Shown here: positions 169 through 21,023 of the stretch, piece by piece | Layout: every line of letters starts with the position of its first letter | Position numbering within the stretch: the first letter of the stretch is position 1 | From: Muribaculaceae bacterium | GTDB taxonomy: Bacteria; Bacteroidota; Bacteroidia; Bacteroidales; Muribaculaceae | Assembly (NCBI GenBank): GCA_017454355.1 | Contig: JAFTDD010000007.1 | Coordinates: 1 to 63,351 of the forward strand | Length of the DNA stretch: 63,351 nucleotides | Direction: 5' to 3' | The notes under the pieces: model-generated | Database searches by the model: none | What the model was told of the DNA's origin: nothing | What the model saw: the letters and a program-made list of their open reading frames with translations, nothing else | Position numbers and translations under genes: made by a program

Positions 169-437
169 CAACCTGCTGCGGCAGGTTGCACAAACCCACG
201 CAGTGGGTTTTACAAAAGCCCCAAGTTGGCGCCGCAGGCGCCTACTTGGGGTCAAGCAATCCCGTTATCGCTACCTCGAAGAGGTTGCACCATCGGCCTC
301 TATCGTGGCGACGGACGGTGCAACCTCTTCGAGGTAGCATTTCCTTTCGGGCCGTCACCCCAGGTAGTCGCTTCGCTCCAACCTGGGGTTCTTGTAAAAC
401 CTGCTTCGCAGGTTAGTGCAACCTGCGAAGCAGGTTG
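169..437. repeat. Composite palindromic element, copy A (seven hairpins)
   Basis: Seven consecutive hairpins can be read: 169-188, 192-210, 219-251, a central 22-base-pair perfect stem (270-291 with 317-338), 358-388, 398-414 and 419-437. The three hairpins left of centre are mirrored by the three right of centre, so the whole unit is one large inverted repeat. A second diverged copy lies at 20711-20981. Short reading frames cross it, but they read through the stems and look meaningless as proteins. Mobile DNA, structured RNA or a protein-binding cruciform are all possible. Confidence 0.85.
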
Positions 438-661
438 TGTCAGCCCGATGCCATTCTGTCGCCCCTGACGGGGCTCACATTTGTCGCCGCTTGCGGCCAC
501 GCCAAGGCGAGGCCCTACAGTCTTTGACAATCCTAATGGATTTTACCGGACAGCAATAATTGCAAACTAAATACCATAGTGGCAAAATGACACCAAAGGG
601 GCATCCCGCTCATTGTTGAGGCAGAAGTGGTGGCCGGGAGGCGGCTGCAGACGAGAACCGC

Positions 662-3600
662 TTAGCGGACGATGAACTTGCGGCCGTCGCGGATGTAGAT
701 GCCGGGCGCTGTGGGGTCGGCCACGCGGCGTCCCTGCAGGTCGTAGGTGATGCCGTCGCCTTCGGTCGGTTGACCGGTCTTGACGTCGGTGATGCCGGTC
801 ACAACAGTTGCGTCGCTCGAGATGACTTGGCCGATGAGGTTCTGGAAGTCGTAGTCGAATGATGAACGCGCGCGACGCGGGGCGGCGCTCCACGGCTCTT
901 TGAGTTCGAGAGCGGCGGTGACAGTGTACTTGTTGCCGTTCACAAATGCCGGAGCCGTGCCTGAGTAGTCGGTTGCGAGCGTCAGGCTCTGGCCGCTGTT
1001 GTCGTGCCAGCCGCGCAGGGTGCCGTCGAAGTAGTAGCCGGTGACTTTGACCACAGCCCCCACGGCCGGTATGTCAAAGCCGGCAGCCAAGTCGATTGCC
1101 GCGATGAGGCTCTCGACATCGGTGATGTCGCCGGTGGGCGTGGCGGTGACCGCGTTCAGTGCCGGCGCGGTGGTGCCGTTGTCAAGCGTGGCGATGGTGT
1201 TCACGAGCGCGTTTCCGGCGGTGAGACCGGTGGCGTCCATGTCGAGGCGTGCCCAGGTGCCGGCCTCATCGGTGACGTAGGCGTGCCCGTTGTCGTCGCT
1301 CACGGCGACCACACGCAGAGCGTTGCTCACGTGGTACTCGTTGCCCTCGTCGAGGGTGAGTACGGTAGCGAGCGTGTAGGCGTCAAACGGAGCCTCGTCG
1401 CGCAGGTAGCCGCCCTCGTCGGCATGCGCCACGGCGACATCGGTGTTCGCCTCGTCGTAGGTGGTGCCGTCCTGGCCCACGATGGACTTGCAGTTGTAGA
1501 ACATACTTTCCGAGTCGGTGACATTGCTCATGTCCCAGCCGTCGCCGATGAAGATTGCCTGCAAACCCGTGCAGCCGCTGAACATCGATTTAGTGTCGGT
1601 GACGGTGCCGGTGTCCCAGGTGCTCAGGTCAAGGCTGCCCAATGACAGGCAGTTGGTGAACATGCAGCAGAAATCGCCATAATAGGAGGTGCCCTTGTCC
1701 ACGCTCGAGAAGTCCCAGTTGCTCACGTCAAGGCTCGACAATGACTCGCAACCATAAAACGTGTATTCGAACCCCTTGCACTTGCTGGTGTCCCAGGCGC
1801 TCAGGTCGAGCGACTTCAAACTGCGGCACTCGTCGAACATATAGGACACATAAGTGTTGCTTGACATGTCAAAGTTCTCGACGCCGGTGATTTCCTCAAG
1901 CGCGTAGCACCCACGGAACATGCCGCTGGTGGTGATCACTTTGGAGAAGTCCCAGCCGGTCAGGTCAAGGCTTTGAAGTTTGGAGCACCACTCAAACATG
2001 CTTATCATTCTCGTGGCGCTCGAGGTGTCCCAGCCGCTCACGTCAAGGCTCTCAATCTTTTGGCAGCCATAGAACATATCGCCGAAATTGGTGACATGTG
2101 ACGTGTCAAAGCAGTCGAGACCTATAATTTCGGTCAACTCGAAGCCATTAAAGAACATGTCGCCCATGTCGGTCACCTTGCCGGTGTCGAGGCTGCTCAC
2201 GTCGAGGCTCGTGATCTTCTGCGCGCCGCCAAACATGTGGTGCATATCGGTCACGTCGCTGGTGTCGAGGTTCTCCAGGCCGGTGAGTTCGACCATGTTG
2301 TAGAAATAGAACCAGTAGGCTGTGCTGGTGGGCTTGACACTGGCGAACGACGGCAGGATTTTCACTACGGTCGCATCCATCAACCCGCTCCACGACGGTC
2401 CAGAGTATGAATTTTGCTGCTTGGTGACCGCATCGCCGTACCACACGTTGGAGATGTTGACCGGCTCGGCGGCTCCCTCGGGGGTATACTGGCTGTCGGC
2501 GGTGATGGTCTCGTCGGCCTCGAGCAGGTAGATGGTGGTTGTCGTGGCGTCGTAGATGGCATAAGGTTGCGTGCCCAGAGCGATGTCCGCGCCGCGGCGC
2601 AGGTAGCCGCCCGCGCCGTAGTGGGCGTTGGTCTTGTCAATCACGTTGGTGTCGAGCGTGGTGCCGTCCTCGCCCACGATTGCCGTGCAGCCGGTGAACA
2701 TATTGCCGGACGACGTGACGTTGGCCGTTGTCCACAGGTTGCTCACCGTGACGCTCTGCAGCTGCTTGCAGCCGTTGAACATACCGCCCATGCTCGTGAC
2801 GTTGCTCGTATAGAAATTGCTCAGATCAAGCGAGGTTAGGCCGGAGCAGCCGAGGAACACGCTGATCATCTGCGTGGCGTTGCGGGTGTCGAACCGGCTC
2901 ACGTCGAGCGTGGTCAGTGCCGAGCAGTTGCGGAAAGCACTGTTGAAGTTCGTGACATTGATTGTGTTCCAGCGGCTCACATCGAGCGACGTCAGCCCCG
3001 TGCAGTTGAAGAACATACCGGCAATGTTGGTCACCTTGCCGGTGTCCCAGCGCGACACATCGATGGTAGTGAGCAGTTTGCAGCCATAGAAAGTGTCCTC
3101 CATCGAGGTGACCTTGGCCGTGTTCCATGAGTTCACGTCGAGGGTCGTGATGTTGTAGCAGTTGTAGAACATATACCCCATGCCGGTGACGTTGGCTGTG
3201 TTCCAGCCGCTCAGGTCGAGGGCTCCCAGCGCGCGGCAGTCATAGAACATATAGCCGAAACTGCTACAGTTGGCGGTATTCCATCCTGCGATGGCGCTCT
3301 CGATGCCCGCCAGTTGCCGGCAGTTATAGAACATATAACTCATCGACTCGACATTGCGCGTGTCGAAGTTCTCCAGACCCGTAATCTCCGAGAGGTAGGT
3401 GCAGTTGTAGAACATGCCATCCATGCGCGTGGCGTTGCTTGTGTCGAAGTGGCTCACATCGATGGTCCGCAGGTTGGTGCAGTTGTAGCACATATTGTTG
3501 AAGAAGTCGGCCTTGCTCGTGTCGAGGTTCTCCGCTCCGATAATGGTGTTGAGCCTTGTGAAGTTGTGGTACCAGCCGTAGAGGTTGGTGGGCTGGACCT

Positions 3601-5677
3601 CGGCGAACGACGGCTCATAGACCACGGTGTAGCACGTGGTGCGCGCCTGTGACCCCCATGCCGGCGTGGTCATGCCGCTACGTCTTCCGGTCACCTGCTC
3701 GCCTTTCCACACACCGCGCACGTAGTAGCTGCCTGTGGGCTCGTCCTCCGGCGTGAAGTAACTTCCCACGGTGATGTCCTCGCTGCGGTTGGTGAAGTAG
3801 AGGCGGGTGCTTGATGAGCCGTTGTACTCCACCAGCACCACCATCGGGGTGAGTTGCTGCTCCCGGGCGGTCCATCCCTCGGGGATGCCGCTGGGGCTGT
3901 CGGTTGGCCAGCCGGTCATGCCGCGCTTGGTGATGAAGGTGCCCGTGGGGGCGACGTCCTCAAGCCAGTTGAGGGTGCAGCCCTCGGCGCTGATGTCCGT
4001 GGCGAGGCACTCGACGCGGTTCAGGCTCGAGCAGCCGCTGAACATCATCGAGTAGCAATAGTCGGCGAGCGTGGCAGCGCGCAACTTGGGAGCGGTCTCG
4101 AGGCTGGTGCAGCCCATGAACATCTCGCTGTAGCAGCCGCTCACGAGCGTGACGGCGGGCAGCGCGGGCGCTTCGGTGAGGCTGGTGCAGCCCATGAAGA
4201 TGCCGTCGTAGCACATGTTGCCAAGCGTGGTGGCGGGCAACGCCGGAGCGTTGACCAGACTGGTGCAGCCGTTGAACATAAACGTGTAGGCGCCCTCGGC
4301 ATTGCTCAGGTCGGTGGCGGGCAGCGCGGGAGCGGTCTCGAGGCTGGTGCAGCCGGCAAACATGTCGTCGTAGCAGTATTCACCCAGCGTCATTGCCGGC
4401 AGCGCCGGCGCGCGGGTGATGCCCTCGCAGCCGTTGAACATGAAGGCGTAGCCGTAGGCGGGCACGCTCGTGGAGGGCAGCACGATGTCCTCCGTCGGGT
4501 GGTTGCGGATGGTGGTGTTCGGCGACCAGTCGGGTGTGCAGAACACACCGGCGAGGCCATACTCGGCGGTGAACGCCGACTTGTCGGCGAAGACCTCGCC
4601 GCTGATGAGGCTCATCATGTTGCCGTAGGCCATCACGTTGTTGCTGGCGAGGATGTGAACACCGGTGCCGTACTCGTCGTTGATCGAGCCCGCCGAGCCG
4701 CGCAGGCGCACCTTGTCGCCCTGGTTGAGCGCAATCTCGATGGGGTCGGCGCTGCTGGCGGTCCATGTGGTGCCGTCAAGGCTGTACTCCATCGTCAGGC
4801 CGTTGGGGTTGACGATCGAAACCGTGCCGGCGGCCTCGGCCTCGAGCGTCAGCGGCTTCTCCCCGGGGCTGAGCGTGGGCTCGGGGATGGGAGAGCCGTC
4901 GGCGACGACAGTCCAGCCGCTGGGGCACGAGCCGCTGTTGCTCATGGTCTTCCACTGGTTGCCGCTCATGTCGGGAGCGGCGATGAGCGTGCCGGTGCTG
5001 CTCACGCCCAACAGCCAGCAGTAGGTGGCGTAGTTCGACGAGGTGTTGTAGACGGCGAGGCAGCGCACTTGGCGCAGGCTCGAGCAGTTGGTGAACATGT
5101 AATAGTAGCAGTAACCTGTGAGCGACTGGGCTGGCAGACTGGGCGCGCGGCGCATCTCGGTGCAGGCGCTGAACATGCGCGCGTAGCAGTATTGCGTCAG
5201 CGTGGTCGCCGGCAGCAGCAACTCCTTGCTCGGGTGGCTGCGCAGGCGGTCATAGCACTCACCGAAGAGGTAGGGGAAGGTGTAACTCTGGCTGAGCGCG
5301 GTGAGCGACGCGAAACCGGTGGAACTGATCAGGCTCATGACGTTGCCGTAGGCATAGAAGTTGCCCGTCGACTTGATGGAGGTGTGGCCCGACGACGACT
5401 GCCATGAACCGGCGTCGGCGTAGGCGGCGTTATCGCCGCGCAGGCTCACCTTGTCGCCCGCCGTGACAGGGATGGTGATGGGGTTCGCGGCACTCGCGGT
5501 CCATGTGGCACCCTCGTCCACGCTGTACTCGATGGTGAGTGCCAGCGGATTGCTGATGTTGATGGTGGTGTTGTCGATTGCCTCAAGCGTCAGCGGTGTC
5601 GCCGTCATGTCGTCGGCTCGCGTCGCTATTGCTCCGGCAAGCAGAACTGCCATCATTAGTAATAGTTTTTTCATCAT
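662..5677 (-). CDS. Giant BspA/DUF285-type secreted surface protein
   Basis: A 1671-residue exported protein with a clear signal peptide (MMKKLLLMMAVLLAGAIATRA). Residues about 155-550 carry short LRR-like repeats of the form YxxMFxGCTSLxxAPALPA; residues about 710-1000 and 1135-1390 carry DUF285/BspA repeats of the form LDVSxWDTSxVTxMxxMFxxC. Two similar linker modules precede the DUF285 blocks. The C-terminus (YDLQGRRV...GIYIRDGRK) resembles the conserved tail of many secreted Bacteroidales proteins, possibly a sorting signal. BspA-type proteins bind host or microbial surfaces; that role here is inferred. It stands alone, downstream of the LytTR operon, with a weak promoter match at 5723-5730. 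Confidence 0.9.
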   Translation of the reverse strand: MMKKLLLMMAVLLAGAIATRADDMTATPLTLEAIDNTTINISNPLALTIEYSVDEGATWTASAANPITIPVTAGDKVSLRGDNAAYADAGSWQSSSGHTSIKSTGNFYAYGNVMSLISSTGFASLTALSQSYTFPYLFGECYDRLRSHPSKELLLPATTLTQYCYARMFSACTEMRRAPSLPAQSLTGYCYYYMFTNCSSLRQVRCLAVYNTSSNYATYCWLLGVSSTGTLIAAPDMSGNQWKTMSNSGSCPSGWTVVADGSPIPEPTLSPGEKPLTLEAEAAGTVSIVNPNGLTMEYSLDGTTWTASSADPIEIALNQGDKVRLRGSAGSINDEYGTGVHILASNNVMAYGNMMSLISGEVFADKSAFTAEYGLAGVFCTPDWSPNTTIRNHPTEDIVLPSTSVPAYGYAFMFNGCEGITRAPALPAMTLGEYCYDDMFAGCTSLETAPALPATDLSNAEGAYTFMFNGCTSLVNAPALPATTLGNMCYDGIFMGCTSLTEAPALPAVTLVSGCYSEMFMGCTSLETAPKLRAATLADYCYSMMFSGCSSLNRVECLATDISAEGCTLNWLEDVAPTGTFITKRGMTGWPTDSPSGIPEGWTAREQQLTPMVVLVEYNGSSSTRLYFTNRSEDITVGSYFTPEDEPTGSYYVRGVWKGEQVTGRRSGMTTPAWGSQARTTCYTVVYEPSFAEVQPTNLYGWYHNFTRLNTIIGAENLDTSKADFFNNMCYNCTNLRTIDVSHFDTSNATRMDGMFYNCTYLSEITGLENFDTRNVESMSYMFYNCRQLAGIESAIAGWNTANCSSFGYMFYDCRALGALDLSGWNTANVTGMGYMFYNCYNITTLDVNSWNTAKVTSMEDTFYGCKLLTTIDVSRWDTGKVTNIAGMFFNCTGLTSLDVSRWNTINVTNFNSAFRNCSALTTLDVSRFDTRNATQMISVFLGCSGLTSLDLSNFYTSNVTSMGGMFNGCKQLQSVTVSNLWTTANVTSSGNMFTGCTAIVGEDGTTLDTNVIDKTNAHYGAGGYLRRGADIALGTQPYAIYDATTTTIYLLEADETITADSQYTPEGAAEPVNISNVWYGDAVTKQQNSYSGPSWSGLMDATVVKILPSFASVKPTSTAYWFYFYNMVELTGLENLDTSDVTDMHHMFGGAQKITSLDVSSLDTGKVTDMGDMFFNGFELTEIIGLDCFDTSHVTNFGDMFYGCQKIESLDVSGWDTSSATRMISMFEWCSKLQSLDLTGWDFSKVITTSGMFRGCYALEEITGVENFDMSSNTYVSYMFDECRSLKSLDLSAWDTSKCKGFEYTFYGCESLSSLDVSNWDFSSVDKGTSYYGDFCCMFTNCLSLGSLDLSTWDTGTVTDTKSMFSGCTGLQAIFIGDGWDMSNVTDSESMFYNCKSIVGQDGTTYDEANTDVAVAHADEGGYLRDEAPFDAYTLATVLTLDEGNEYHVSNALRVVAVSDDNGHAYVTDEAGTWARLDMDATGLTAGNALVNTIATLDNGTTAPALNAVTATPTGDITDVESLIAAIDLAAGFDIPAVGAVVKVTGYYFDGTLRGWHDNSGQSLTLATDYSGTAPAFVNGNKYTVTAALELKEPWSAAPRRARSSFDYDFQNLIGQVISSDATVVTGITDVKTGQPTEGDGITYDLQGRRVADPTAPGIYIRDGRKFIVR

Positions 5678-5722
5678 AGCGGAGTTTCGTTATTCGTTAT
5701 TCGTTTTTAGTTATTTGTGCTG

Positions 5723-5730
5723 CGAATTTA
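5723..5730 (-). promoter_or_regulatory. Weak -7 element for the DUF285 gene
   Basis: On the minus strand the bases read TAAATTCG, one change from the Bacteroidetes -7 consensus TAnnTTTG, about 46 bases upstream of the start at 5677. No good -33 TTG was seen. Confidence 0.35.
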
Positions 5731-5735
5731 GCGAG

Positions 5736-5772
5736 AAAAAGCGGCACCGGCAATAGAGCCGGTGCCGCTTTT
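5736..5772 (-). terminator. Intrinsic terminator downstream of the LytTR regulator
   Basis: An 11-base-pair GC-rich stem (5741-5751 with 5758-5768) with a six-base loop is followed by five Ts on the minus strand. It lies about 180 bases beyond the regulator stop and before the DUF285 promoter region. Confidence 0.75.
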
Positions 5773-5844
5773 GACGAAGTGGCCCTCGCGGGTGACGATA
5801 CTGCCGTTACTCTTGATGAAGTCGCAACATGCGTTTCTCGCAGG

Positions 5845-5875
5845 GGCCGGCGCGTGGGCGCGCGGCATGGCCAAC
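5845..5875. repeat. GGCCGGCGCG-type palindromic repeat, copy 1
   Basis: This GC-rich palindromic unit, GGCCGGCGCG-TGG-GCGCGCGGCATGGCCAAC, recurs at 42674-42712 and 42918-42956 with few changes. No coding role is apparent. Confidence 0.75.
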
Positions 5876-5885
5876 CGCTGACGCC

Positions 5886-5957
5886 TCCATGCTACGTGCT
5901 CCATGCTCCATGCTCCATGCTCCATGCTCCATGCTACGTGCTCCATGCTACGTGCTA
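5886..5957 (-). repeat. 7-base-phased tandem repeat starting at the UAG stop of the LytTR gene
   Basis: Read on the minus strand the array is built from TAGCACG, TAGCATG and GAGCATG units. Its first three bases (5955-5957) are the stop codon of the regulator gene. Similar arrays begin at the stop codons of nadE and the DegP gene. Confidence 0.8.
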
Positions 5958-6677
5958 AAGGTGGAGGAGGGCTTCGACGGCGGTTTTTGAGAGGTCGATG
6001 GTGAGCAGCGTGCCGGCCGGGGCGCGCAGCGTACATTGCTGGCGCTTGGCGTTGATGCGGTAGATGAGAGTGGCGTTGACGATGGTGCTGCGGTCGGCGC
6101 GCACGAAAGCCGCCGGGTCAAGTCGTCGCTCAAGGGCGGCGAGGCTCTCGAGGACCGCCTCCTCGCCGTTGAATGTGATAAATCGTGAGTAGTTGCCGTC
6201 GGCGCGGATGGCTGCGATGTCGTCGGGTTCGAGAAAAAGGCGCCCGCTGACGGTGCGCAGCGACAGTTTGCCCGGCATCGGCTCTGCCTCGACGAGACCG
6301 GCGCGCTCAACGGCCTTGGCGATGGCCACCGCCAGGTCGTTGCGGTTGATGGGTTTCATCAGGTAGTCGACAGCGTTCACTTTGATGGCTCCCATCAGGT
6401 AGCGTCGGTCAGCATAGGCGGTAGTGAAGATGATGAGTGGCAGAGGGATGTCGCCGGCTTTGAGTTCGTCAAGCATGGCGATGGTGTCGCGGCCTCGCAG
6501 TTGGATGTCGAGCAAGACCAGGTCCGGCCGGAGGCGGGCGATGGTCTGCAGCGCGTCGTCGTAGTTGTCGACGGCGGCGATGACCTCAACGCTGTCGCTG
6601 AGTTCCTCGAGTTTCTTGAGCAGGGCGAGCCGCGGCAGGCGCTCGTCCTCGACAACGATTGTTGAGAGTCGTTTCAT
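5955..6677 (-). CDS. LytTR-family response regulator
   Basis: A 240-residue regulator. Residues 1-120 form a receiver domain with the acidic pair E10-D11, phosphoacceptor D57 (LVLLDIQL), T85/T86 and K108 (LMKPI). Residues about 140-240 form a LytTR DNA-binding domain (FLEPDDIAAIRADGNYSRF, VRADRSTIVNATLIYRI). It follows the sensor kinase gene by 75 bases that contain a CAAAACGGC palindrome, so the two are probably one operon. The kinase upstream is broken by an amber codon, so the input to this regulator may be altered. The stop codon is the first triplet of a tandem repeat. Confidence 0.93.
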   Translation of the reverse strand: MKRLSTIVVEDERLPRLALLKKLEELSDSVEVIAAVDNYDDALQTIARLRPDLVLLDIQLRGRDTIAMLDELKAGDIPLPLIIFTTAYADRRYLMGAIKVNAVDYLMKPINRNDLAVAIAKAVERAGLVEAEPMPGKLSLRTVSGRLFLEPDDIAAIRADGNYSRFITFNGEEAVLESLAALERRLDPAAFVRADRSTIVNATLIYRINAKRQQCTLRAPAGTLLTIDLSKTAVEALLHL

Positions 6678-6699
6678 TTTCGTTAGTTATTATAATTAT

Positions 6700-6743
6700 C
6701 AAAACGGCTCGGCCGTTTTGCACACCACTTGGCCGTTTTGCAC
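6700..6743. repeat. CAAAACGGC/GGCCGTTTTG palindrome between kinase and regulator
   Basis: A perfect palindromic arm pair (6700-6723) followed by a second half copy (6731-6743). The same unit is found at 31419-31444 and 32379-32403, each time in a short gap within a probable operon. Confidence 0.8.
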
Positions 6744-6752
6744 ACAACTCTT

Positions 6753-9377: not shown

Positions 9378-9401
9378 CAGCAAGCAAATCATTTCTTTAT
9401 G

Positions 9402-10904: not shown

Positions 10905-11852
10905 TTAGAGTCGGAATTCAGTGAGGCGTCCGTCCACGAAGTAGAGGTAACTGCCGCCCTGATAGAGCCATCGCTCGCGCAGGCCGCCCTGGTCGGGCAG
11001 CGACACGATGCGCGCCGGTGCGCCGCGCGACAGGCGGCACTCGCCTTTGGTCATGCCTTCGGCCAATTCGCCGCGCGTGATGAGCGTCCATGTGGCATCG
11101 TTGATATCGTTGTGTCGCCGGCGGGGGTCGCTGTCGCTGAATAGTGACTGCAAGTCACGTCCGGGCATAATCATGGTGCCATCGTTCATCCATAGCATAG
11201 CCCTCTGGCCGCTATCGTTCACCGTGAATATCACTCGCAGCGGCAGCACTTTGTTGCCGGGCTCAACGGCTGTGACGGTCACCGGGACGTATTGCCTTCC
11301 TCGTGTCATCTGCTCCGTTGCCGGGTCATACCATAGCGGAGTCATTACCCAAAGTTGCCGTCCACGCAGCATATTATGGGCTGCGGCAACCATATCCAAG
11401 TCGATGAGTAGCGGCACGCGGTAGGCCGGCCCCAAGGTTTCAAGCCGTTTGCCGGTGGGGTAGTGGTAGTCGTGCCGGCCGTCGGTGAAGAGCAGCGTCA
11501 CGGCATCGTTGCCCGTGAGCGCGTCTCCGGTGGTATAGCCCTGGAAGGTGAGGGTGCGTCCCTGCAGGGCAACCGTGTCGATGTCAAACGATGTGGGGCG
11601 TGAGAATAGCAGTCGCGCCTGATTGTCGGTGACAACAAATCGCTTGCCGCCCGGCGTCCATGAAGCCACCGAGTCGCCGGTTTCCACAAGCGGCTGCGGG
11701 GCAGTGCGCTCGGCTCGCGACAAAGCCTGTTGCACATCGCCCGACGTCACCGGCGGAGTGCTCTCAACGCCGGTGAAGCAACTGCTGAGTGTTGCCGGCA
11801 TCGGCAGCACTGTCGCGCACGCTATCAGAATGTTCTTGAGGTTTCGTGTCAT
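10905..11852 (-). CDS. Uncharacterised lipoprotein overlapping tamB
   Basis: A 315-residue protein I cannot assign to a family. It starts with a lipoprotein signal (lipobox TLSSC, Cys at about residue 25), so it is probably membrane anchored. The body has mixed beta-rich segments with no recognised motif. Its first 89 bases overlap the 3' end of tamB in another frame, and the overlap encodes the entire signal peptide; no later ATG would keep the lipobox. Tight linkage between TamB and the DUF4105 protein suggests an envelope assembly role, which is inference only. Confidence 0.75.
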   Translation of the reverse strand: MTRNLKNILIACATVLPMPATLSSCFTGVESTPPVTSGDVQQALSRAERTAPQPLVETGDSVASWTPGGKRFVVTDNQARLLFSRPTSFDIDTVALQGRTLTFQGYTTGDALTGNDAVTLLFTDGRHDYHYPTGKRLETLGPAYRVPLLIDLDMVAAAHNMLRGRQLWVMTPLWYDPATEQMTRGRQYVPVTVTAVEPGNKVLPLRVIFTVNDSGQRAMLWMNDGTMIMPGRDLQSLFSDSDPRRRHNDINDATWTLITRGELAEGMTKGECRLSRGAPARIVSLPDQGGLRERWLYQGGSYLYFVDGRLTEFRL

Positions 11853-14800
11853 TGTTTTTCGCTTTGGGTTTGCGCCGCAAGTGAAGCAAATCCCAGAAGT
11901 TGTTGAAGTCGTTTTTCCAAACCACCCCCACGCCCTGTGTGGTAAGCGCGTTACGCACGTAGTAGTTTTGGTCGTTGAAGTGGTTGTAAGCCTTCAGCCG
12001 GAAAGTGCCGCGCGCGTTGAGCAGATACTCAATGTCGAAGTCGCCGATGAAGTTGGACGTCTGCGTGTTGTAGGTGTTGTCGCGGTAACCGAAGTTTCCG
12101 TTGAGCAGCAGGCGGTTATTGAGCAGTTGGCTCGACAGTGCCAGTTCGACTTCCACATCACTGAAGTCGCCGCGCGCGCTGCGGAAGTTTGGCGCAATCG
12201 TCCAGTTGTCGCTGATTTTACCCAGCATCGACGACAGTTGCGACGAGATGGTGCTCGAGGCGACGTTGGTCAACTCGTTGCCGCTGCTCTCGGTGTTGGT
12301 GTAGTCCGGCGTGTAGAAGCGGTTCAGTGCCAGCAGATATATAATCTGTTGGTTCATCATCACGTCGGTGCCGATAATTGCCTTGACCTTGGTCACGGCG
12401 TCGGTGCTGAGCGTGGGGAACTCAAGGTCAAAGTCTATCTCGGGTTGTGACATCTGTCCTTGTGCCTTGAGCACGGCGTGCACCGGGACGTTAGTGCGTT
12501 GTATCTCGCGGTCGCTGGCGAAACTCTGGTCCAGGTCGCGCAGGTTCGCGTTGGTGCTATAGACGGCGTTCAGGTCGATTGTCGCGCCGTAGGGGTCACC
12601 CTGGAATGTGATGCTGCTGCCGTCACGGATGATGAAGTCTTTGACGATGATGTCCTGCAGCGTGAAGTTGTAGTTGCCTCGCTGCAGGGTGTAGGTTCCG
12701 TAGATTCTCATCTCGTCGTTGTTGTTGTACGTCAGTCGCATGTTGCCGCTTCCCACCGCCTTGATTTGGTCACCGCCGATGGGGTCCATCACGAGGATGA
12801 GTTGCGCGTCGGGCGTGATGTCGCCCTGCAGGTCGATGGTGAATGCCGTGGGTGGGCCTGACGACTGGGGCCCGGCAAGCGCGAGATGTCTCTTCACGCT
12901 CTCGGGCACCGTGTCGGCTGCCTGTTGGGCTTGCAAGGCCAACTGCTCGTGGTTCTTGCTGCGGAATGTGATGAATTTATACTCTGTCGCCTCCTTGCTG
13001 CCACTCATCACAAACGTGAATTTGCTGCCCGGACGGCTGGTCATGTTCACCTTGATGTCAACTGTGCCCGGGCCGCCGGTGACAAATGCCGAGCCGTTGC
13101 CGTACACGGTGCCCCACCACACGTGGTTAGTGGCCTCGGTAGTGTCGTAGCAAAGCAGATTTTGTGCCTCGGTGACGCCAAAGTTGAACGTCGGCCCATG
13201 GAAGTTCTCATGCCGCAGCCAGCCGCCTAACTTGGCCGTGTGCCCCTCTCGATCCAAAATGGTGATGTCGTCGATGGCAATGAGACCCGGCTCAATGTGC
13301 ACATCCTCGTTGCGACACGAGTAGCGCACGTTGGTGAAGTCAAGCAGGAAGTTGAGCGTGTCGGCATGAATGTCACCCTTGAGGTTGATGTCCTTGAACG
13401 TGCCGTATAGCGTCGCCTTGCCGCTCACGCGCCCTTGCACATCGCGTGCAAACGCTTTCATAAACGGCTTCATGAACGCCACATTCGCCTTGTGGGCGTC
13501 AAAGTCGAGCGATAACGAGTCGCCACCGATATAAATGGCACCGTCGATAACCGATGTCTCGTCGTTTGGCTGGCGGATATCGGCGTGCAGGGCCACCGCT
13601 TTGTCATTGTGTCGCCACTGGGCCGTGATGTCGGCATTGCCCATGTCGGCGTCGTTGTAACTGATGTGCTCAACATGCAGCCCCGGAGTGTAGAGGTTCG
13701 GCGCTCCCGAAAACACGTCGGCCGCATAGAATTTACCCGTCGCACGGCCGCCAAAGTCCACATTGTTAATTGCCAGCGTGTCAAAGATGTAGTCGAGACT
13801 CATGTCGCCCAAGTCAAGGCAGAGAAGGTCGTCCGGGTCGTGCGAGAGAGTGCCGTCAATTGTGACGTACTGGTCGTCGTGGTAGCCGTGCAGGTTGTTG
13901 ACGGCAATGCGCAATTTATTGCGAGCCTCCTTTACCTCTCCATCCTTCGGGATGGTGTGTGGGGAGGCAGTGATATTGACCGTTGCCGGGTCAATCGTCC
14001 ACACGGTGTCGTTGAATGTCACGTGCGACGGCTTGACAGTCACCAGCCCATTCATCGTGCCGTCCTCGTCGCGTTCGACCGTGGCGTCTAAATTGAGGAG
14101 GCCGCTATAGTCGTGCTCTCGCTCCATCGTCCAGGCGAGCGTTACTGCGGCGTGTCCATCGTCAAGCGTGCCATTCACACTCACCGGAATACGCCCTTTC
14201 TTGTGGGGCAGTATGGTGGCGATGTCAAGGGCAAAGCCGCTGGCGCTGTCGGCGTCAAGGGTGAGCCTTGTTTTTTCTATCACGCGTTTGCCTTGCAGCA
14301 AGTAGGGCACATTCACCGCAATGTGGGCCAGCCCCTCACTGTCGTTGATTGACGCCTCAACATCAGCCGCGTCAAGCAGAGTCACCGGCAGGTTCAACAG
14401 GCCGTAAAGACGCTCACTTGGCGTCACTCGCAGTGCAAGACGCACGTCATCGGCCGTGTCGGCAAAACTTGGCGGAGTGAATAACTGCGGCAAGGCGCCG
14501 GCTAAATGTTGGCGCACGGTGCCCACGAGTCCCTTATAGGTGAAGTGACCCTCCACAGTGCCGCTGGCAATCTCGCTATCAATCATGATGGAGTGCCAAT
14601 TATTCGGTGAGTCCTTTGCTTCACCGTGTTTTGAGAGAGAGTTAGGGGAGTCTTCTTCGGTTTGTGCCACGACGTGCAGCCGGTCAAGCGCCAGAGGCTT
14701 TTTCCCCTCGCGCTCAAGCCGCAAGTCAGTCAGCGTTAACTTTCCGGCCAAATCATCAATTGTGTTACCCTCAACGTCGGCACTCACCGTTCCGCTGAGA

Positions 14801-16455
14801 GTGCTTGCCGCCCATTGCCTGTTTGGCAGGCCGGCCGGCAGTTTCAGGCGCTCGATGTTTACATCGGCCAGCAGAGCCTGTTCCTGTCCTTTGCGATGGA
14901 AGTTACCGTCGATTGAGAATGAGGCATTGTCACCTTCAGCGCTTATGCCGCCTTCCAGTGCAGCCCCGTTGTAGGCCAAGTCGGCATCGATATTGTCGTA
15001 GCGTGTGCCGTATATGTCGATGTGGTCAATGTGGCCCGAGAATGACGCGTTGGCAATCCCAAACTTCGTTCCGTGTGCAGCCATCTTGTGGCCGTCTCCT
15101 TTGATTTCAAAATCGGCATTTAACGCAATCTCGTTGAGTGCGTCGGCTCGAGAGAGCAGTTCGCCGATCTTTACGCCCGGACTGCTAATGTGTCCTTTGA
15201 AGTGCTTTTTGTCTTTCGCATGGCCGTTGATGGTGACTTTCCCTAATTCGGTCGTGGCATCGGCAGTGAGGTCAAAGTTGTTAATTGTGCCGTGGAGCGT
15301 AGTCTCGAGTGAAGTCTGTCCCAGTCGGCTGATGATGTTGCTCACTTGCGGTTTGAGGCTGGCGAAGTTGTTGATGATGGGGAGCAGGCGTCGCGCGTCG
15401 GCGGTAATATTAAGTCGTTCGATGTCAATGCCGGCATCGTCTAAATTGCCTCGCGCATCAATGGCGAGCGAGCGGTCGCTTGCTTCGACCGTGATATTGT
15501 CGAGGGAGAAACTGCCGTGGCCATCGTGGGCCACATCGAGCGCAAGGTGCAGGGGAGTGGTGATTGCAGCCAATCGCCGGTCAAAAGCCGCGAAGTCGGC
15601 CGGCGTCACTTTCACGCCATCGGCTAACGTAAGGTGCACGGGCAACGTCGGCAAGTCTTTGCCAAGGGTCTTCAGCGATGGATATTGCAACTCAAACGTG
15701 TCGACGGCTACATGGCTGCGCGGCAGGTCTATCACAAGATTTCTCACGCTCAAGTGAGTGCTGTCAAGCGTGGCGTCAAGCGCCAGTCTTTCCACCGTCA
15801 ATCCGCTGCGCTCGGTCAACGCAATCCGTTTTACATCAAACGCGAAGTCATCATTCTTGATGCGAGGCAGCAAGACGTCGGCGCGCAGGTTCTCAATGGC
15901 TATATGATTCGGGTCGAATGTGCCATCGGGTCGATGCGGCTCGCTCAGCACATCATAACTCAGGCGGGCCCCACGCAACACCACGTTGCGTGCCTCGACG
16001 TCAAACCGCTTTGGCGGATTGCCGGGCTTTGGCTTGAGCAGGTCAATGATGAATTGCGCGTTCAGTGGCGCATCGGGCGTCGCACGTCGCGCGGTGATAT
16101 TCACACCAATCAGTTCAGCATACGATAAAACGACGCGTTTTTCTATTATCAGTGGCCAAAGGTCAATGCCGGCTCCCACGCGTGTGGCACTCAACAAGTG
16201 GCCGCCCTCGCGGTCGGCAATGCGCACGTCGCTGATGGCGACACGAGTGAACGGCTCGATGTCCAACTTGCCAACCGTCACCTCCGTTCCAAGATACTTG
16301 CCGACCTCGACTTCAACTCGAGACTTCACCCGATTTTGCACCGACGGCAACGACAGCAGCACATAAGCAAGCAAATAAACACCCACCACGAGCACAATCC
16401 CTGTTACGAGGACTGCCCGCAGCACATTATATACTTTCTTGCTCACTCTCGCCAT
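11764..16455 (-). CDS. tamB: TamB-like translocation/assembly module protein
   Basis: A 1563-residue protein with one N-terminal membrane helix (residues about 10-33), a very long beta-rich body of AsmA/DUF490 type repeats and a C-terminal TamB domain (LSSQLLNNRLLLNGNFGYRDN, GDFDIEYLLNARGTFRLKAYNH). TamB-like proteins bridge inner and outer membranes and are linked to beta-barrel insertion and phospholipid transport. It is first in an operon with a lipoprotein and a DUF4105 protein. A TAATTTTG -7 element lies at 16491-16498 on the minus strand. No BamA-type partner is present in the window. Confidence 0.9.
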   Translation of the reverse strand: MARVSKKVYNVLRAVLVTGIVLVVGVYLLAYVLLSLPSVQNRVKSRVEVEVGKYLGTEVTVGKLDIEPFTRVAISDVRIADREGGHLLSATRVGAGIDLWPLIIEKRVVLSYAELIGVNITARRATPDAPLNAQFIIDLLKPKPGNPPKRFDVEARNVVLRGARLSYDVLSEPHRPDGTFDPNHIAIENLRADVLLPRIKNDDFAFDVKRIALTERSGLTVERLALDATLDSTHLSVRNLVIDLPRSHVAVDTFELQYPSLKTLGKDLPTLPVHLTLADGVKVTPADFAAFDRRLAAITTPLHLALDVAHDGHGSFSLDNITVEASDRSLAIDARGNLDDAGIDIERLNITADARRLLPIINNFASLKPQVSNIISRLGQTSLETTLHGTINNFDLTADATTELGKVTINGHAKDKKHFKGHISSPGVKIGELLSRADALNEIALNADFEIKGDGHKMAAHGTKFGIANASFSGHIDHIDIYGTRYDNIDADLAYNGAALEGGISAEGDNASFSIDGNFHRKGQEQALLADVNIERLKLPAGLPNRQWAASTLSGTVSADVEGNTIDDLAGKLTLTDLRLEREGKKPLALDRLHVVAQTEEDSPNSLSKHGEAKDSPNNWHSIMIDSEIASGTVEGHFTYKGLVGTVRQHLAGALPQLFTPPSFADTADDVRLALRVTPSERLYGLLNLPVTLLDAADVEASINDSEGLAHIAVNVPYLLQGKRVIEKTRLTLDADSASGFALDIATILPHKKGRIPVSVNGTLDDGHAAVTLAWTMEREHDYSGLLNLDATVERDEDGTMNGLVTVKPSHVTFNDTVWTIDPATVNITASPHTIPKDGEVKEARNKLRIAVNNLHGYHDDQYVTIDGTLSHDPDDLLCLDLGDMSLDYIFDTLAINNVDFGGRATGKFYAADVFSGAPNLYTPGLHVEHISYNDADMGNADITAQWRHNDKAVALHADIRQPNDETSVIDGAIYIGGDSLSLDFDAHKANVAFMKPFMKAFARDVQGRVSGKATLYGTFKDINLKGDIHADTLNFLLDFTNVRYSCRNEDVHIEPGLIAIDDITILDREGHTAKLGGWLRHENFHGPTFNFGVTEAQNLLCYDTTEATNHVWWGTVYGNGSAFVTGGPGTVDIKVNMTSRPGSKFTFVMSGSKEATEYKFITFRSKNHEQLALQAQQAADTVPESVKRHLALAGPQSSGPPTAFTIDLQGDITPDAQLILVMDPIGGDQIKAVGSGNMRLTYNNNDEMRIYGTYTLQRGNYNFTLQDIIVKDFIIRDGSSITFQGDPYGATIDLNAVYSTNANLRDLDQSFASDREIQRTNVPVHAVLKAQGQMSQPEIDFDLEFPTLSTDAVTKVKAIIGTDVMMNQQIIYLLALNRFYTPDYTNTESSGNELTNVASSTISSQLSSMLGKISDNWTIAPNFRSARGDFSDVEVELALSSQLLNNRLLLNGNFGYRDNTYNTQTSNFIGDFDIEYLLNARGTFRLKAYNHFNDQNYYVRNALTTQGVGVVWKNDFNNFWDLLHLRRKPKAKNNDTKPQEHSDSVRDSAADAGNTQQLLHRR

Positions 16456-16490
16456 TTATCTGCAAATTTCGCAAATTATAATATAACCGG

Positions 16491-16498
16491 CAAAATTA
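16491..16498 (-). promoter_or_regulatory. -7 element upstream of tamB
   Basis: TAATTTTG on the minus strand, 36 bases upstream of the ATG, matches TAnnTTTG. No clear TTG at -33. Confidence 0.5.
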
Positions 16499-16525
16499 CA
16501 AAAAAAATCTCGGATAACGTTTGTT

Positions 16526-16831
16526 CTAACTAAAAACTATCGGTGTGAAACCACAATCGCGGCAGTCGCGGCCGTTCTGATGTGGACAATTGCGGCGCAT
16601 AGTCTTGTGATCAACCTCTTGCAGCGCGACAAAGTCGGGGTTGTAACGCTTGATTAACTCGCCGATTTGCTCCAATGAAGCGTCGTGGCCGGCGTGAAGG
16701 TTGAACGTCATCACACGGATGGTGTCAGATGGATGGGTTTCCGCTAACCGTTGTCCGTTAACGGTTTCACTCATCGTAATCAATGTTGCCCCACAAAATA
16801 GTGCCGCACTCAATAATTGCTGTAATTTCAT
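16526..16831 (-). pseudogene. Truncated endonuclease/exonuclease/phosphatase-family remnant
   Basis: Only 101 residues: a signal peptide, then the start of an EEP domain (RVMTFNLHAG, VALQEVDHKT). Family members are about 250-300 residues and need His and Asp motifs that are missing here. Similarity fades after PHQNGRD, and the frame ends at 16526 just before the tamB promoter, suggesting a deletion that removed about two thirds of the gene. It could still make a small exported peptide, but catalysis is not expected. Confidence 0.7.
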
Positions 16832-16842
16832 TTAATTCTAAG

Positions 16843-16952
16843 TGCTACGTACTACATGCTACGTACTACATGCTACGTACTACATGCTACGTACTACATG
16901 CTACGTACTACATGCTACATACTACATGCTACGTACTACATGCTACATGCTA
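16843..16952 (-). repeat. 14-base tandem repeat starting at the nadE stop codon
   Basis: About seven copies of ACATGCTACGTACT (plus strand), with small changes. In the nadE direction it reads TAGCATG TAGCATG TAGTACG and its first TAG (16950-16952) is the nadE stop codon. It fills the gap to the EEP remnant. Confidence 0.9.
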
Positions 16953-18890
16953 AATCGCGTCACACTCCCGCAACCAAAGTGCCGCACTGGCATCGCTCGG
17001 CATACGCCAGTCGCCGCGCGGTGAGAGCGAAATGTTGCCTACCTTGGGACCATCTGGCAGGCACGACCGCTTAAATTGCTGACTGAAGAAGCGACGAATA
17101 AAGGTTCTTAACCATTGCTTAATCGTCGCGGCGTCATATTGGCCGTCAAAAGCCTTGCAAGCCAGCAAGTGCAACTTCGCCGGACCGAAGCCGTGGCGCA
17201 GCATATTATATAGGAAAAAGTCATGCAGTTCGTATGGCCCGACAATATCTTCAGTCACCTGCTTGATTGTGCCGTCAGCGGCCGCAGGCGTCAACTCCGG
17301 ACTGATTGGAGTGCTGACGACATCTTGCAATGTCGCGGCCAATGAAGCCGGTGACGACTTGGCAAACCAAGTGACGAGATGCTTGACAAGGGTCTTGGGG
17401 ATTGAGGCATTCACGTTGTACATGCTCATGTGGTCGCCGTTATAGGTCGCCCAACCCAATGCGAGTTCCGACAGGTCGCCCGTACCCAGCACAAGGGCAC
17501 CAACCTTGTTGGCACAGTCCATCAGAATTTGGGTGCGTTCGCGAGCCTGGCTATTTTCGTAGGTCACGTCATGGACAGTCGCGTCTTGACCAATGTCGGC
17601 AAAGTGCTGCGTCACCGCCGCGCCAATATTGATTTCAATGGATGTCACACCCAGTGCCTCCATCATCTGCTGTGCGTTCGCGTGAGTGCGACCTGTTGTG
17701 CCAAATCCCGGCATCGTAATGCCGATGATGTCCTTTCGGTTTAACTTGAGTTCGTCAAACGCGTGTACCGCCACCAGCAGCGCCAACGTCGAGTCAAGGC
17801 CGCCACTGATGCCCACCACCAGACGTTTGATGCCTGTCGCCTCGAGACGGCGCATCAGTCCTTGGCTCTGGATTGCCACCACCTCGCGACAGCGGGCGTC
17901 GCGGTGCGCTTCGCTCCCGGGCACAAATGGCATCGCCTTCACGGGACGCATGAGGCTGCCTGCGGTGACCTGCTCACGGCGGATGTCAACTTCAACGGTA
18001 TCGTAACAGGCGCCGTGAGTGATTGTGCTGTCAGAGAACGACGAGTTAATCATACGCTCGTTCTCGAGCAACTCCAGGTCGACATCGGCAACCGCCAGCC
18101 GAGGCTCGCGGTCAAACCGCTTGGTGCCGGTGAGAACGACGCCGTTCTCGGCGATGATGCCGTTGCCGGCAAACACGAGGTCGGTCGTGCTCTCGCCATA
18201 ACCGGCCGAGGCATAGACGTAGGCCGCAATGCAACGGTCGCTCTGATGCTTGATCAGGCCCAACAAATGTTCGTGCTTGCCCACGACCTCGTTGCTCGCC
18301 GAGAGGTTGACAATCACGTTGGCACCGTTGATGGCGGCCAACGTGCTCGGCGGCACCGGAGCCCACAAGTCCTCACAAAGTTCCACCGCAATTCGCGCCC
18401 CGCGGCACTCAAATATCATATTGCGGCCAAAGGGCACCTCACGACCCGCAATCGTCACACTATGGACATCCATCGCCGTGAGTGCCGTCGAGAACCACCG
18501 TTTCTCGTAAAACTCTTTGTAGTTGGGAATATAAGTTTTGGGCACAGCCCATATATGGCCGTTGTTGAACACGATGGCGCAGTTAAACAGGCGTCCGCGG
18601 TGCCTCACCGGCGCGCCCACCACAACCATAATGTCCGTCGACGGCAGTCTCATCAACATATCGTCGAGGGCGTTTTCCACCTCGTCAAGCAGCAAGTCGT
18701 TGTGGAACAGGTCGCCGCAAGTGTACCCCGTCAGGCACATCTCGGGAAACACGACCAAGCCGGCGCCCGCATCGTAGGCGCGCGTCACCATCCGCACCAC
18801 GCTATCCACGTTGTCACTCACGTTGGCGACGCTCACGGCCGGCACAGCCGCCGCCACCCTCAGGTAGCCATAATTCAATTCACAATTCAT
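16950..18890 (-). CDS. nadE: Glutamine-hydrolysing NAD+ synthase
   Basis: A 646-residue two-domain enzyme that makes NAD+ from deamido-NAD+ with glutamine and ATP. The N-terminal nitrilase-type glutaminase has its Glu in VVFPEMCLTGY, Lys near KTYIPNYKEFYEKR and Cys in VELCEDLW (about residue 171). The synthetase domain has the ATP-binding SGGLDST near residue 362 and the LGTGDLSELALGW motif. Length is normal. The first five codons (MNCEL) derive from an ATGAATTGTGAATT repeat at 18876-18906; family members usually begin directly at the NYGxxxVAAAxP segment. Single gene with a promoter at 18916-18923. Confidence 0.95.
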   Translation of the reverse strand: MNCELNYGYLRVAAAVPAVSVANVSDNVDSVVRMVTRAYDAGAGLVVFPEMCLTGYTCGDLFHNDLLLDEVENALDDMLMRLPSTDIMVVVGAPVRHRGRLFNCAIVFNNGHIWAVPKTYIPNYKEFYEKRWFSTALTAMDVHSVTIAGREVPFGRNMIFECRGARIAVELCEDLWAPVPPSTLAAINGANVIVNLSASNEVVGKHEHLLGLIKHQSDRCIAAYVYASAGYGESTTDLVFAGNGIIAENGVVLTGTKRFDREPRLAVADVDLELLENERMINSSFSDSTITHGACYDTVEVDIRREQVTAGSLMRPVKAMPFVPGSEAHRDARCREVVAIQSQGLMRRLEATGIKRLVVGISGGLDSTLALLVAVHAFDELKLNRKDIIGITMPGFGTTGRTHANAQQMMEALGVTSIEINIGAAVTQHFADIGQDATVHDVTYENSQARERTQILMDCANKVGALVLGTGDLSELALGWATYNGDHMSMYNVNASIPKTLVKHLVTWFAKSSPASLAATLQDVVSTPISPELTPAAADGTIKQVTEDIVGPYELHDFFLYNMLRHGFGPAKLHLLACKAFDGQYDAATIKQWLRTFIRRFFSQQFKRSCLPDGPKVGNISLSPRGDWRMPSDASAALWLRECDAI

Positions 18891-18906
18891 AATTCACAAT
18901 TCATAA
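18876..18906. repeat. AATTCACAATTCATAATTCACAATT tract at the nadE start
   Basis: Direct repetition of AATTCACAATTCAT words that overlaps the first nadE codons and leads into the promoter region. Confidence 0.7.
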
Positions 18907-19263
18907 TCTTTCTACAAATCTAAATCCGCAACCATGAATATGCTCACGAAAATCTCCGAAAAATCCCGAATAAGAATCTCTCGTAAATTTACGTAAATTA
19001 TCGTAAATATTTTATTTTCAAATTTTATCGCCAATTTTTAATTTACGTGAGTTTACGAAAATTTACGAGATAAAATAATTGTCGAGAATTTTTGAGCGAG
19101 AAATATCGAGTTGCGGAATTTAGGTACAAAGATAATATTTTTTTCACAACGTTCTGTCATAACCGTCAGTTTTTTGCAATATTTAAAGACAATCAAATAC
19201 AATCAAGAACAATCTTCTTGCCTTCAACATTGTTTTTCATCGTATTTAATTGTTTAAAATATG
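18891..19263. other. AT-rich gap with TTTACG words; no gene seen
   Basis: Contains the nadE promoter (18916-18923, minus), palindromic TTTACGTAAATT words (18985-19075) also seen near 27620 and 63230, and an imperfect inverted repeat (19178-19213 with 19227-19262). A 67-codon frame at 19092-19295 lacks coding character. Confidence 0.6.
18916..18923 (-). promoter_or_regulatory. -7 element of nadE
   Basis: TAGATTTG on the minus strand, 26 bases upstream of the ATG, matches TAnnTTTG. Confidence 0.5.
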
Positions 19264-19442
19264 GAGTCCACTGCAAAAAGTCGGTCAAAATTTAAACATG
19301 AATTACCATAAATTATCCATGAATTTTTATTCCAAATATTATAATTAAAATTCATAATTTATGAATAATTAATGGATAATTTATGGAAATTAATGTTCAA
19401 AAATTTTGTTGCAACAGATGTAATACTTTTTACAGTGGACTC
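19264..19442. mobile_element. 179-base MITE-like element
   Basis: The ends are 18-base inverted repeats, GAGTCCACTG(C/T)AAAAAGT, with one mismatch (19264-19281 and 19425-19442). The interior is AT-rich with a second perfect inverted pair (19306-19320 with 19372-19386). No transposase frame and no obvious target duplication. It ends 20 bases before the -33 element of the next gene. Confidence 0.6.
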
Positions 19443-19462
19443 GATAATTTAGGTTCTCAATT

Positions 19463-19492
19463 TTGCGGTAATAGGTGTTTTTTGTAATTTTG
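19463..19492 (+). promoter_or_regulatory. Promoter of the double TonB-C gene
   Basis: TTG (19463-19465), 19 bases, TAATTTTG (19485-19492): full consensus spacing, about 60 bases upstream of the ATG at 19555. Confidence 0.7.
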
Positions 19493-19554
19493 CTTGTTAA
19501 ATTGAAATATTCATTCTATAAATAGTCCACGGTCAACGGTTAATCCTTCAATCG

Positions 19555-20349
19555 ATGAAACGTTTTCCATTGTTCATTCTGCTTATAGCGGCTTTTGTCT
19601 GCATGGCGGCTACTGCTGACGAGGATCCGGTATTCTATAGTGCCGATGAGCAGCCTCAGTTTCCGGGTGGTAACACCGAACTTTTAAGCCGTATTGCATC
19701 GCGTCTGGTCTTCACGCGTGAGATGGTTGATAGTTCGGTGAGCGGTCGGATGGTACTTCAGTTCATCGTGCGTCGCAACGGAAACATTGATAGCGTCCGC
19801 GTTCTCAAACCATTGCATCACCTGCTTGATAGTCAAGCCGCCGCTGCCTGCAGTGAGTTGACCGGTTTCATACCCGGCAAGTCAGATGGCAAGCCGGTTT
19901 CGATGTGGTACACCCTGCCCGTGCCCATCACGATACCCGATAATGCGGATGTCATCGACAATGCTACGCTCATCGATGATGTTTACCTCTCTTACGAGGA
20001 CACCCCGGCGATGTTGGATTCACTGTATGATGGCGGCATGAATGCTCTGGTGCGTTACCTTGCCATGAACATGAACTATCCCGAAGAGGCGGCTATGCAG
20101 AACCTTCAGGGTAAAGTAGTGGTGCGCTTCGCTGTCAATCGTCAGGGACAAATCACTTATGTCCGTACCATTCTTTCCGTACACCCGCTGCTTGATCGCG
20201 AGGCTGAGAGAGTCTGCCGCTCAATCCCGCAGCGCTTCAAGCCCTATATTGATGAGAAAGGTGAGGCGCATGTCGTCTGGTTCACGCTTCCCGTCACTTT
20301 TGCTCTGCAAAACGGCGCGGTCCCGCCCTGCGGCATCATTCGCCACTAG
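19555..20349 (+). CDS. Secreted protein with two TonB C-terminal-like domains
   Basis: A 264-residue protein with a signal peptide instead of the usual TonB transmembrane anchor and Pro-rich spacer. Two TonB_C-like domains follow, residues about 30-130 (QPQFPGG, GRMVLQFIVRRNGNIDSVRV) and about 165-255 (NMNYPEEA, GKVVVRFAVNRQGQITYVRT), each with the YP/FPGG entry and VxFxVxxxGxI signature. Energy transduction needs a membrane anchor, so this one may act as a periplasmic adaptor; that is inference. Single gene with its own promoter at 19463-19492. Confidence 0.85.
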   Translation: MKRFPLFILLIAAFVCMAATADEDPVFYSADEQPQFPGGNTELLSRIASRLVFTREMVDSSVSGRMVLQFIVRRNGNIDSVRVLKPLHHLLDSQAAAACSELTGFIPGKSDGKPVSMWYTLPVPITIPDNADVIDNATLIDDVYLSYEDTPAMLDSLYDGGMNALVRYLAMNMNYPEEAAMQNLQGKVVVRFAVNRQGQITYVRTILSVHPLLDREAERVCRSIPQRFKPYIDEKGEAHVVWFTLPVTFALQNGAVPPCGIIRH

Positions 20350-20603
20350 CCCAAAACGAAAAACAAAAAACGAAAAAACAGATTATTGTAGGATCCGCCC
20401 TTGCCCTGGCCGCGTGCCTCAACGTTTTTTTAACATTAAGATCCATTAATATCCATTAATTGCGTTATTGTAGGGCCTGGCCTTGGCCTGGCCGCGTGCA
20501 ATCCTCCCCCCAACCCCTCCTAAAGGATGGGGAACGAAAAACTGATTATTGTAGGGCCTTGCCGCGAGCAGCGACTTTTTGGACTGGACTCAGTGATAAT
20601 TTT
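20350..20603. repeat. Gap with three degenerate TTGTAGGGCC...GGCCGCGTGC repeats
   Basis: Diverged copies start near 20382, 20466 and 20545, each with ATTGTAGG followed by CCTTGGCC-type words. No gene is seen. Related words (GGCCAGGCCCTACAA) are at 23799-23824. Confidence 0.55.
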
Positions 20604-21023
20604 GGCTCTGTAACGTTTTGTGTGGATATTTATAACATCCCCTTCTATTATTTTAAATAGGATTATATTCTACTCTGGCGTACGGCTCTAATTATTGAGT
20701 ATGGAGGCGACAACCTGCCTTGGCAGGTTGCACAAACCTCGTCAGAGGTTTTACCGAAACCCCAGGTTGGCGCCGCAGGCGACTACCTGGGGGAATACGG
20801 TGAATATGAGAACACTACCTCGCAGAGGTTGTACCATCCCGCCTGGACGTGTGCAACCTCTGCGAGGTAGGCGCCTGAGTGTAGAGCCTCTTCAACCCCC
20901 AGGTAGTCACTTCGTTCCAACCTGGGGTTTTTGTAAAACCCACTTCGTGGGTTCGTGCAACCCGCCGGAAACGGCGGGTTGTCGGCTTGGCTCTCCGCTA
21001 CCCACACAAAACGTTACAGAGCC
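20604..21023. mobile_element. 420-base non-autonomous transposon with 22-base TIRs and 8-base target duplication
   Basis: Perfect 22-base terminal inverted repeats beginning GGCTCTGTAACGTTTTGTG occupy 20604-20625 and 21002-21023. The element is flanked on both sides by ATAATTTT (20596-20603 and 21024-21031), an exact 8-base target-site duplication. It carries no transposase, and the interior is mostly composite palindrome copy B. GG-starting ends with an AT-rich 8-base duplication fit ISL3-family mobilisation; that family assignment is inferred. Confidence 0.85.
20711..20981. repeat. Composite palindromic element, copy B
   Basis: Same hairpin order as copy A: 20711-20730, 20734-20751, 20760-20792, central stem 20815-20831 with 20854-20870, 20897-20927, 20937-20953 and 20958-20981. 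Stem sequences differ from copy A but pairing is kept, for example CAACCTGC/GCAGGTTG against CAACCCGCC/GGCGGGTTG. It lies inside the transposon-like element. Confidence 0.85.

Follow-up and report, generated by a model that had tools for sequence, protein, structure and literature searches.

The question

The 63,351-nucleotide stretch of Muribaculaceae DNA analysed here (the window; contig JAFTDD010000007.1 of assembly GCA_017454355.1, which is contig C56 of the 2.7-Mb, 102-contig genome G000) carries two large composite palindromes, W1 and W2, and raises the question of what such structures are and what keeps their fold. The original prediction for this DNA placed the palindromes at 169-437 and 20711-20981, where we also find them, and read their paired stems as either a cruciform or a structured RNA. 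That choice left something out: elsewhere in G000 a Y1 transposase gene lies between these very arms, which makes hairpins formed by a transposable element in single-stranded DNA the more fitting interpretation. W1 and W2 are probably non-autonomous miniatures of an element resembling the insertion sequence (IS) IS200, with a transposase of TnpA-Y1 subclass 1.2.

A parent element with a transposase gene

G000 holds the parent structure itself, derivatives that retain the first tnpA codons, and other Y1 families built in like manner. Searched with Y1_Tnp, the genome yields 10 matches; one of them, tnpA at C52:11800-12231, is enclosed by both palindrome arms and is an open reading frame, with a start, for a Y1 (HuH) transposase of 150 amino acids. 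The two arms are as follows.

L009:1262-1388 (C52), left arm of the tnpA-bearing parent
L009:1834-1955 (C52), mirrored right arm of the tnpA-bearing parent

Two palindrome copies about 2 kb from this gene, C52a and C52b, contain in their centres ATGAGCGTCGTCATCGGACTCTATC, which is the tnpA start with its first ~25 bases. The sister genome G087 (assembly CAMHQD01, an uncultured Porphyromonadaceae of the Bacteroidales and of the same genus as G000) also has palindrome copies; the neighbouring genes of C52a recur in it, with tnpA in full at the site of that copy, and the contig concerned has two open tnpA copies. The G000 gene differs from these two copies by 8 and 13 silent and by 5 and 6 replacement changes, the proportion of replacement differences (pN) being 0.014-0.017 and that of silent differences (pS) 0.079-0.129, and the G087 copies differ from each other by 7 silent changes and 1 replacement. 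The centre of W1 may hold a transposase remnant too, its match to the C52 tnpA start being weak, as 10 of 300 shuffles did equally well.

Anatomy of W1 and W2

Each palindrome is a mirror-symmetric element of about 265 bp with many hairpins, whose arms of about 120 bp have three hairpins each (H1-H3 on the left, H5-H7 on the right) and flank an inverted repeat of 21 bp in the centre. The predicted number of seven hairpins holds if the centre is counted as one unit; there are eight local stems if it is counted as two hairpins. The left and right arms match within a copy, as had been claimed (for W1 and its own minus strand the match is 72% over 269 bases, with E 1e-33), and the compensatory stem differences between W1 and W2 are real, at H2, H3, H5, H6 and H7. 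Folded as single-stranded DNA, W1 and W2 reach z-scores of -13.3 and -11.6 against dinucleotide shuffles, and in each case none of 200 shuffles folded as well. The features below have no strand except where one is given.

169..437, W1, composite palindrome copy
169..188, W1 hairpin H1 (CAACCTGC/GCAGGTTG)
193..209, W1 hairpin H2 (AACCCAC/GTGGGTT)
219..251, W1 hairpin H3, with a conserved internal T.T mismatch
270..290, W1 central half H4L, which forms an inverted repeat of 21 bp with 318-338; each half is a small hairpin as well
291..304, plus strand, W1 centre, possible transposase remnant (weak; 13 of 14 bases equal the C52 tnpA start region)
318..338, W1 central half H4R
358..388, W1 hairpin H5, with a conserved internal A.A mismatch
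398..414, W1 hairpin H6 (AACCTGC/GCAGGTT)
419..437, W1 hairpin H7 (CAACCTGC/GCAGGTTG)
20711..20981, W2, composite palindrome copy
20711..20730, W2 hairpin H1
20735..20750, W2 hairpin H2 (AACCTC/GAGGTT)
20760..20792, W2 hairpin H3
20814..20834, W2 central half H4L
20851..20870, W2 central half H4R
20897..20927, W2 hairpin H5, with A-T in place of an inner G-C pair
20937..20953, W2 hairpin H6 (AACCCAC/GTGGGTT)
20958..20981, W2 hairpin H7 (CAACCCGCC/GGCGGGTTG)

The two copies are real members of a larger set: near-full-length copies stand at 17 places in G000, the two in the window included, and W1 is 71-76% identical to the others in whichever orientation scores better. The genome search also recovered solo arms and fragments.

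The fold that persists

Covariation was measured on an alignment (A2) of 20 copies: G087 supplied four, and the other 16 are all but one of the 17 near-full-length copies in G000. Rows C9, C79 and the partial g82 of an earlier alignment (A1) were dropped, as their order or length differed, and C52b, g27 and the fragments also stand outside it. In the local structure of 66 pairs, 96.7% of cells are standard pairs and 10 pairs changed on both sides, against a shuffle mean of 3.1 and with none of 500 shuffles as high, which bears out the predicted stem covariation. The local covariation score (0.050 against 0.032) was likewise reached by none of 500 shuffles; further pair types numbered 17, a count not above shuffles (154 of 500). 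The long-range mirror pairing, 75 pairs with 92.1% of cells paired, behaves otherwise, as only three pairs changed on both sides (264 of 500 shuffles as high) and the score lies below the shuffle mean (459 of 500). In a separate count, taken as supporting evidence only, 1144 of 1200 cells are paired, a number that none of 2000 strand shuffles attains. The aligned copies are related, many of them of one recent subfamily, and the covariation counts are accordingly not counts of independent events.

These results show which folded form of the element persists. The prediction of selection on folding stands in that the stems covary and a nucleic-acid fold is kept, but covariation by itself is no proof of selection, since hairpin-templated correction or the swapping of whole hairpins yields the same pattern. 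The T.T mismatch in H3 and H4L and the A.A mismatch in H4R and H5 are each kept in 19 of the 20 copies; their cause is ambiguous, because the same bases also oppose each other in the long-range pairing.

Peptides read through the palindrome are not what persists, as had been expected. Which frames are fully open varies from copy to copy in a set of 16, and three of these have no such frame (g41, C12, C47b and g74, incomplete at one end, were left out of this count). By the frame offset from the H4 to the H5 anchor, 18 copies fall into three equal groups, 6/6/6. In 14 copies the flanks on either side reach 150 nt, and none of these has a frame that extends more than 150 nt beyond both ends; C31a and C90 lie too close to a contig end for this test. 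A coding reading is rejected on the unconserved frames together with the even offset split.

Class of the transposase

The protein P0001 scores 66.9 bits against Pfam Y1_Tnp (cut-off 23), and its best phmmer match among solved transposases is 2xm3 (E 3.2e-5), ISHp608 reaching only E 0.86. Its motifs are YILKQESHH and DHIH; residues H52, H54, Y113, Q117, H120 and H121 are common to five G000 proteins and three relatives, and an extension follows the Y motif in the Y1 proteins compared. Both the Y---Q--HH and the HuH motif occur at 58 of 59 survey loci. Y---Q--HH is the signature of TnpA-Y1 subclass 1.2 in the survey of Quentin et al. 2018 (PMC6006769), and the transposase here agrees with the account given there in this motif, in DH[IV]H, in length (~148 amino acids there, 150 here) and in its Bacteroidetes host; the published account also names Cyanobacteria as hosts and a specific C-terminal domain. 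For repetitive extragenic palindromic (REP) sequences that survey enters the subclass as 'no', and it describes the members as generally lacking typical terminal IS200 structures and as not sharing IS properties, whereas the loci here have mirrored multi-hairpin arms and gene-less miniatures. We found no later paper on the subclass in a literature search that left most subscription papers out. The new point is these mirrored arms, which supply a candidate DNA substrate for a TnpA-Y1 subclass that had been described as devoid of IS features.

Mirrored arms at other loci

Genomes with a match to the transposase profile number 39 of 49 searched within the genus and 115 of 247 drawn from across the phylum, G000 being counted in both. 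At the tnpA loci, the 300-nt left flank was compared with the reverse complement of the right flank and with 100 dinucleotide shuffles per locus, which replaced a cross-locus null contaminated by shared arm families. Mirrored arms beat all 100 shuffles at 27 of 27 congeneric loci and at 15 of 29 others from the phylum, two fractions that may be biased upward, all loci being the best-scoring ones. Control segments 900-1200 nt away never gave a score above 15.0 at the same 56 loci. The congeneric set is 27 of 30 loci (the flanks of L118, L130 and L141 were too short), with L119 belonging to G000's own L049 family; all 29 phylum loci were used. As a separate observation, long direct repeats flank the subclass 1.2 tnpA genes of L159, L169 and L175, which come from outside the genus.

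Three of the four other Y1 families in G000 also have mirrored arm pairs without a transposase gene, at the following places.

C21, gene-less inverted arm pair of the L049 family
C96, gene-less inverted arm pair of the L052 family
C88, C38, C8 and C10, gene-less inverted arm pairs of the L050 family

Their inverted scores, 27.0-45.2 against shuffle maxima of 10.5-12.6, are descriptive and no test, the pairs having been preselected as inverted. The L051 family shows single dispersed arms only (40 of 108 candidates scored). Further afield, G098 has two dispersed single arms of its own family, and G068 shows no more than its own arms, together with short pieces on the contig that bears them. On balance we lean towards a wider view, with reserve, in which subclass 1.2 TnpA, so far a group of orphan HuH nucleases, would be the transposase of widespread Bacteroidota palindromic single-stranded-DNA elements, its gene lying centrally in mirrored hairpin arrays; each family would co-evolve with its own arrays and seed gene-less giant palindromes, and symmetry would make either strand a substrate.

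A second layer of mobility

W2 lies inside an unrelated element, delimited as follows.

20596..20603, no strand, 8-bp direct repeat ATAATTTT, left copy, likely target-site duplication
20604..20625, plus strand, left terminal inverted repeat (22 bp) of the element enclosing W2
21002..21023, minus strand, right terminal inverted repeat of the same element
21024..21031, no strand, 8-bp direct repeat ATAATTTT, right copy

With terminal inverted repeats around it and ATAATTTT on both sides, W2 at least could have moved as cargo. No empty copies of the enclosing element were found in G000 or G087, and one partial terminal match lies on C88 of G000. Another type of element, recognised by its terminal repeat ACTCAAGTTTCTAAAGTA, has at least one such repeat at 7 of 15 checked palindrome copies and both ends at four of them. 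By reading, C48 and C54 hold elements of the ACTCAAGTTTCTAAAGTA type with only one or three hairpins, which probably reflects stepwise hairpin loss.

At the insertion sites compared with G087, those of C47a, C26 and C83 are occupied there too (C83 at a contig start), the alignment of the C5 site reaches the contig end 39 bases into the element, and the C93a site has unrelated sequence. For W2, C31b and C31c no clear orthologous flank was found in G087.

Proposed mechanism and alternatives

The parent consists of a left arm (three hairpins and half of the central repeat), tnpA and a mirror-image right arm, and we propose that an internal deletion took out tnpA and joined the arms into a giant palindrome similar to a REPIN (REP doublet forming hairpins). 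By analogy with IS608, TnpA acting in trans may recognise the folded hairpins in single-stranded DNA, such as the lagging-strand template, and may carry out cutting and joining around ACAACC...GGTTGT at the outer ends. With arms that mirror each other, either strand would offer equivalent hairpins, and the conserved T.T or A.A mismatch perhaps helps to tell a hairpin from its complement. Some copies may later have spread passively inside unrelated terminal-inverted-repeat elements.

Several results weigh against this proposal. P0001 falls under the cut-off of the NCBIfam IS200/IS605 model NF033573 (50.8 bits, cut-off 55) and of the REP-associated model NF047646 (23.7 bits, cut-off 80). As seven of the checked copies lie in or beside another terminal-inverted-repeat element, part of the copy number is not necessarily the work of TnpA. 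No clean orthologous empty site was seen in G087 (a search that covered 10 of the 13 joins prepared, with 40 of 222 candidates scored), and ACAACC and GGTTGT are candidate termini. In the wider survey, 14 of the 29 phylum loci failed the mirrored-arm test and 6 of the 29 showed strong direct repeats (score above 78.8), and in the single-contig genome G004 all 12 arm hits fall within one 2.3-kb cluster.

The position of W2, the ACTCAAGTTTCTAAAGTA repeats and the reduced elements at C48 and C54 would all fit a palindrome that is passive cargo of conventional DDE-type terminal-inverted-repeat elements, with no mobility of its own. We consider this unlikely, as two unrelated inverted-repeat elements carry the palindrome, 8 of the 15 copies (W2 among them) have no ACTCAAGTTTC repeat, the arms are shared with the tnpA-bearing parent, and other tnpA families are built alike. 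The covarying stems, the strong folding and the want of a reading frame through the testable copies agree with a structured non-coding RNA, or a bidirectional terminator or messenger RNA stabiliser, under selection. Such a role appears very improbable: no Rfam family matches the window at gathering score, strong palindrome matches occur in just 2 of 101 congeneric genomes (G000 included; at most the best seven candidates per genome), solo arms, fragments and single-hairpin remnants exist, and at C52 the same arms enclose a transposase gene. Least credible of all is a cruciform on double-stranded DNA, serving as a recombination or nucleoid-protein site, for which the mirror symmetry of the arms and the high proportion of long-range cells that pair could be cited; it was already disfavoured by the covariation, which exceeds shuffles in the local hairpins but not in the pairing of the whole palindrome.

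Relation to known systems

As a probable miniature of a Y1 element, the palindrome is closest in kind to the following systems. REPINs and their REP-associated tyrosine transposases (RAYT, class 2 TnpA-REP; together the REPtron; PMC3116915, PMC8266576) are likewise dispersed inverted hairpin doublets related to a Y1 transposase gene and show compensatory changes; but a REPIN has one hairpin per arm, whereas the element here, of ~265 bp, has three, its transposase is class 1 (Y---Q) where RAYT is class 2 (Y---NP), and by eye in A2 the outer hairpins have no GT[AG]G at their 5' foot, GTAG lying within H4R/H5 and GTGG within the 3' strands of H1/H2. The palindrome-associated transposable elements (PATEs) of Haloquadratum (PMC3119063) are core-deleted, terminal-only relatives of IS605-type elements and are also nested with other mobile elements; PATEs lack terminal inverted repeats by definition, whereas here the whole ends are mirror images. 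IS608 and ISDra2 of the IS200/IS605 family (PMC6006769) share an HuH-Y1 transposase with Y---Q and sub-terminal hairpins, theirs being small (20-25 nt) at two ends, in contrast to the mirrored arrays of three per end. The REPIN and PATE idea thereby comes to include class 1 enzymes and ends with several hairpins.

Distribution and neighbouring repeats

Besides the two genomes with strong matches, three further congeneric genomes gave palindrome matches of 29-31 bases, again among at most the best seven candidates each. A plasmid or phage origin was considered and set aside, copy C31b having no match in a plasmid or phage collection. No tRNA gene turned up in a tRNA scan. Several copies lie at or close to contig ends, and the element therefore probably also breaks assemblies. 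At the G087 counterpart of the W1 locus (L103:1300-1500, G087:C23) only the right arm is present, joined to what we take to be the start of an rsgA gene; the W1 centre and this junction have about ten bases in common, and a rearrangement through the palindrome is possible. Beside C52b, at L009:4300-4420, stand about five head-to-tail copies of a hairpin unit of 22 bp, which means that the hairpins of the element can evidently expand in tandem.

A search of the window at E 1e-4 with the arms of the four other Y1 families found no match. Directly after W1, at 456-558, another repeat (CTGTCGCCCCTGACGGGGCTCACATTTGTCGCCGC...) begins, with 91-99% matches in several G087 contigs; by eye its first hairpin resembles that of the L050 family, the arms of which gave no blast match in the window. 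Two more repeats, at 20470-20499 and 20551-20577, start with GTAGGGCCT and look by eye like GTAG-type REP sequences, and the longer G000 Y1 proteins of L055, L057 and L058 could be their transposases.

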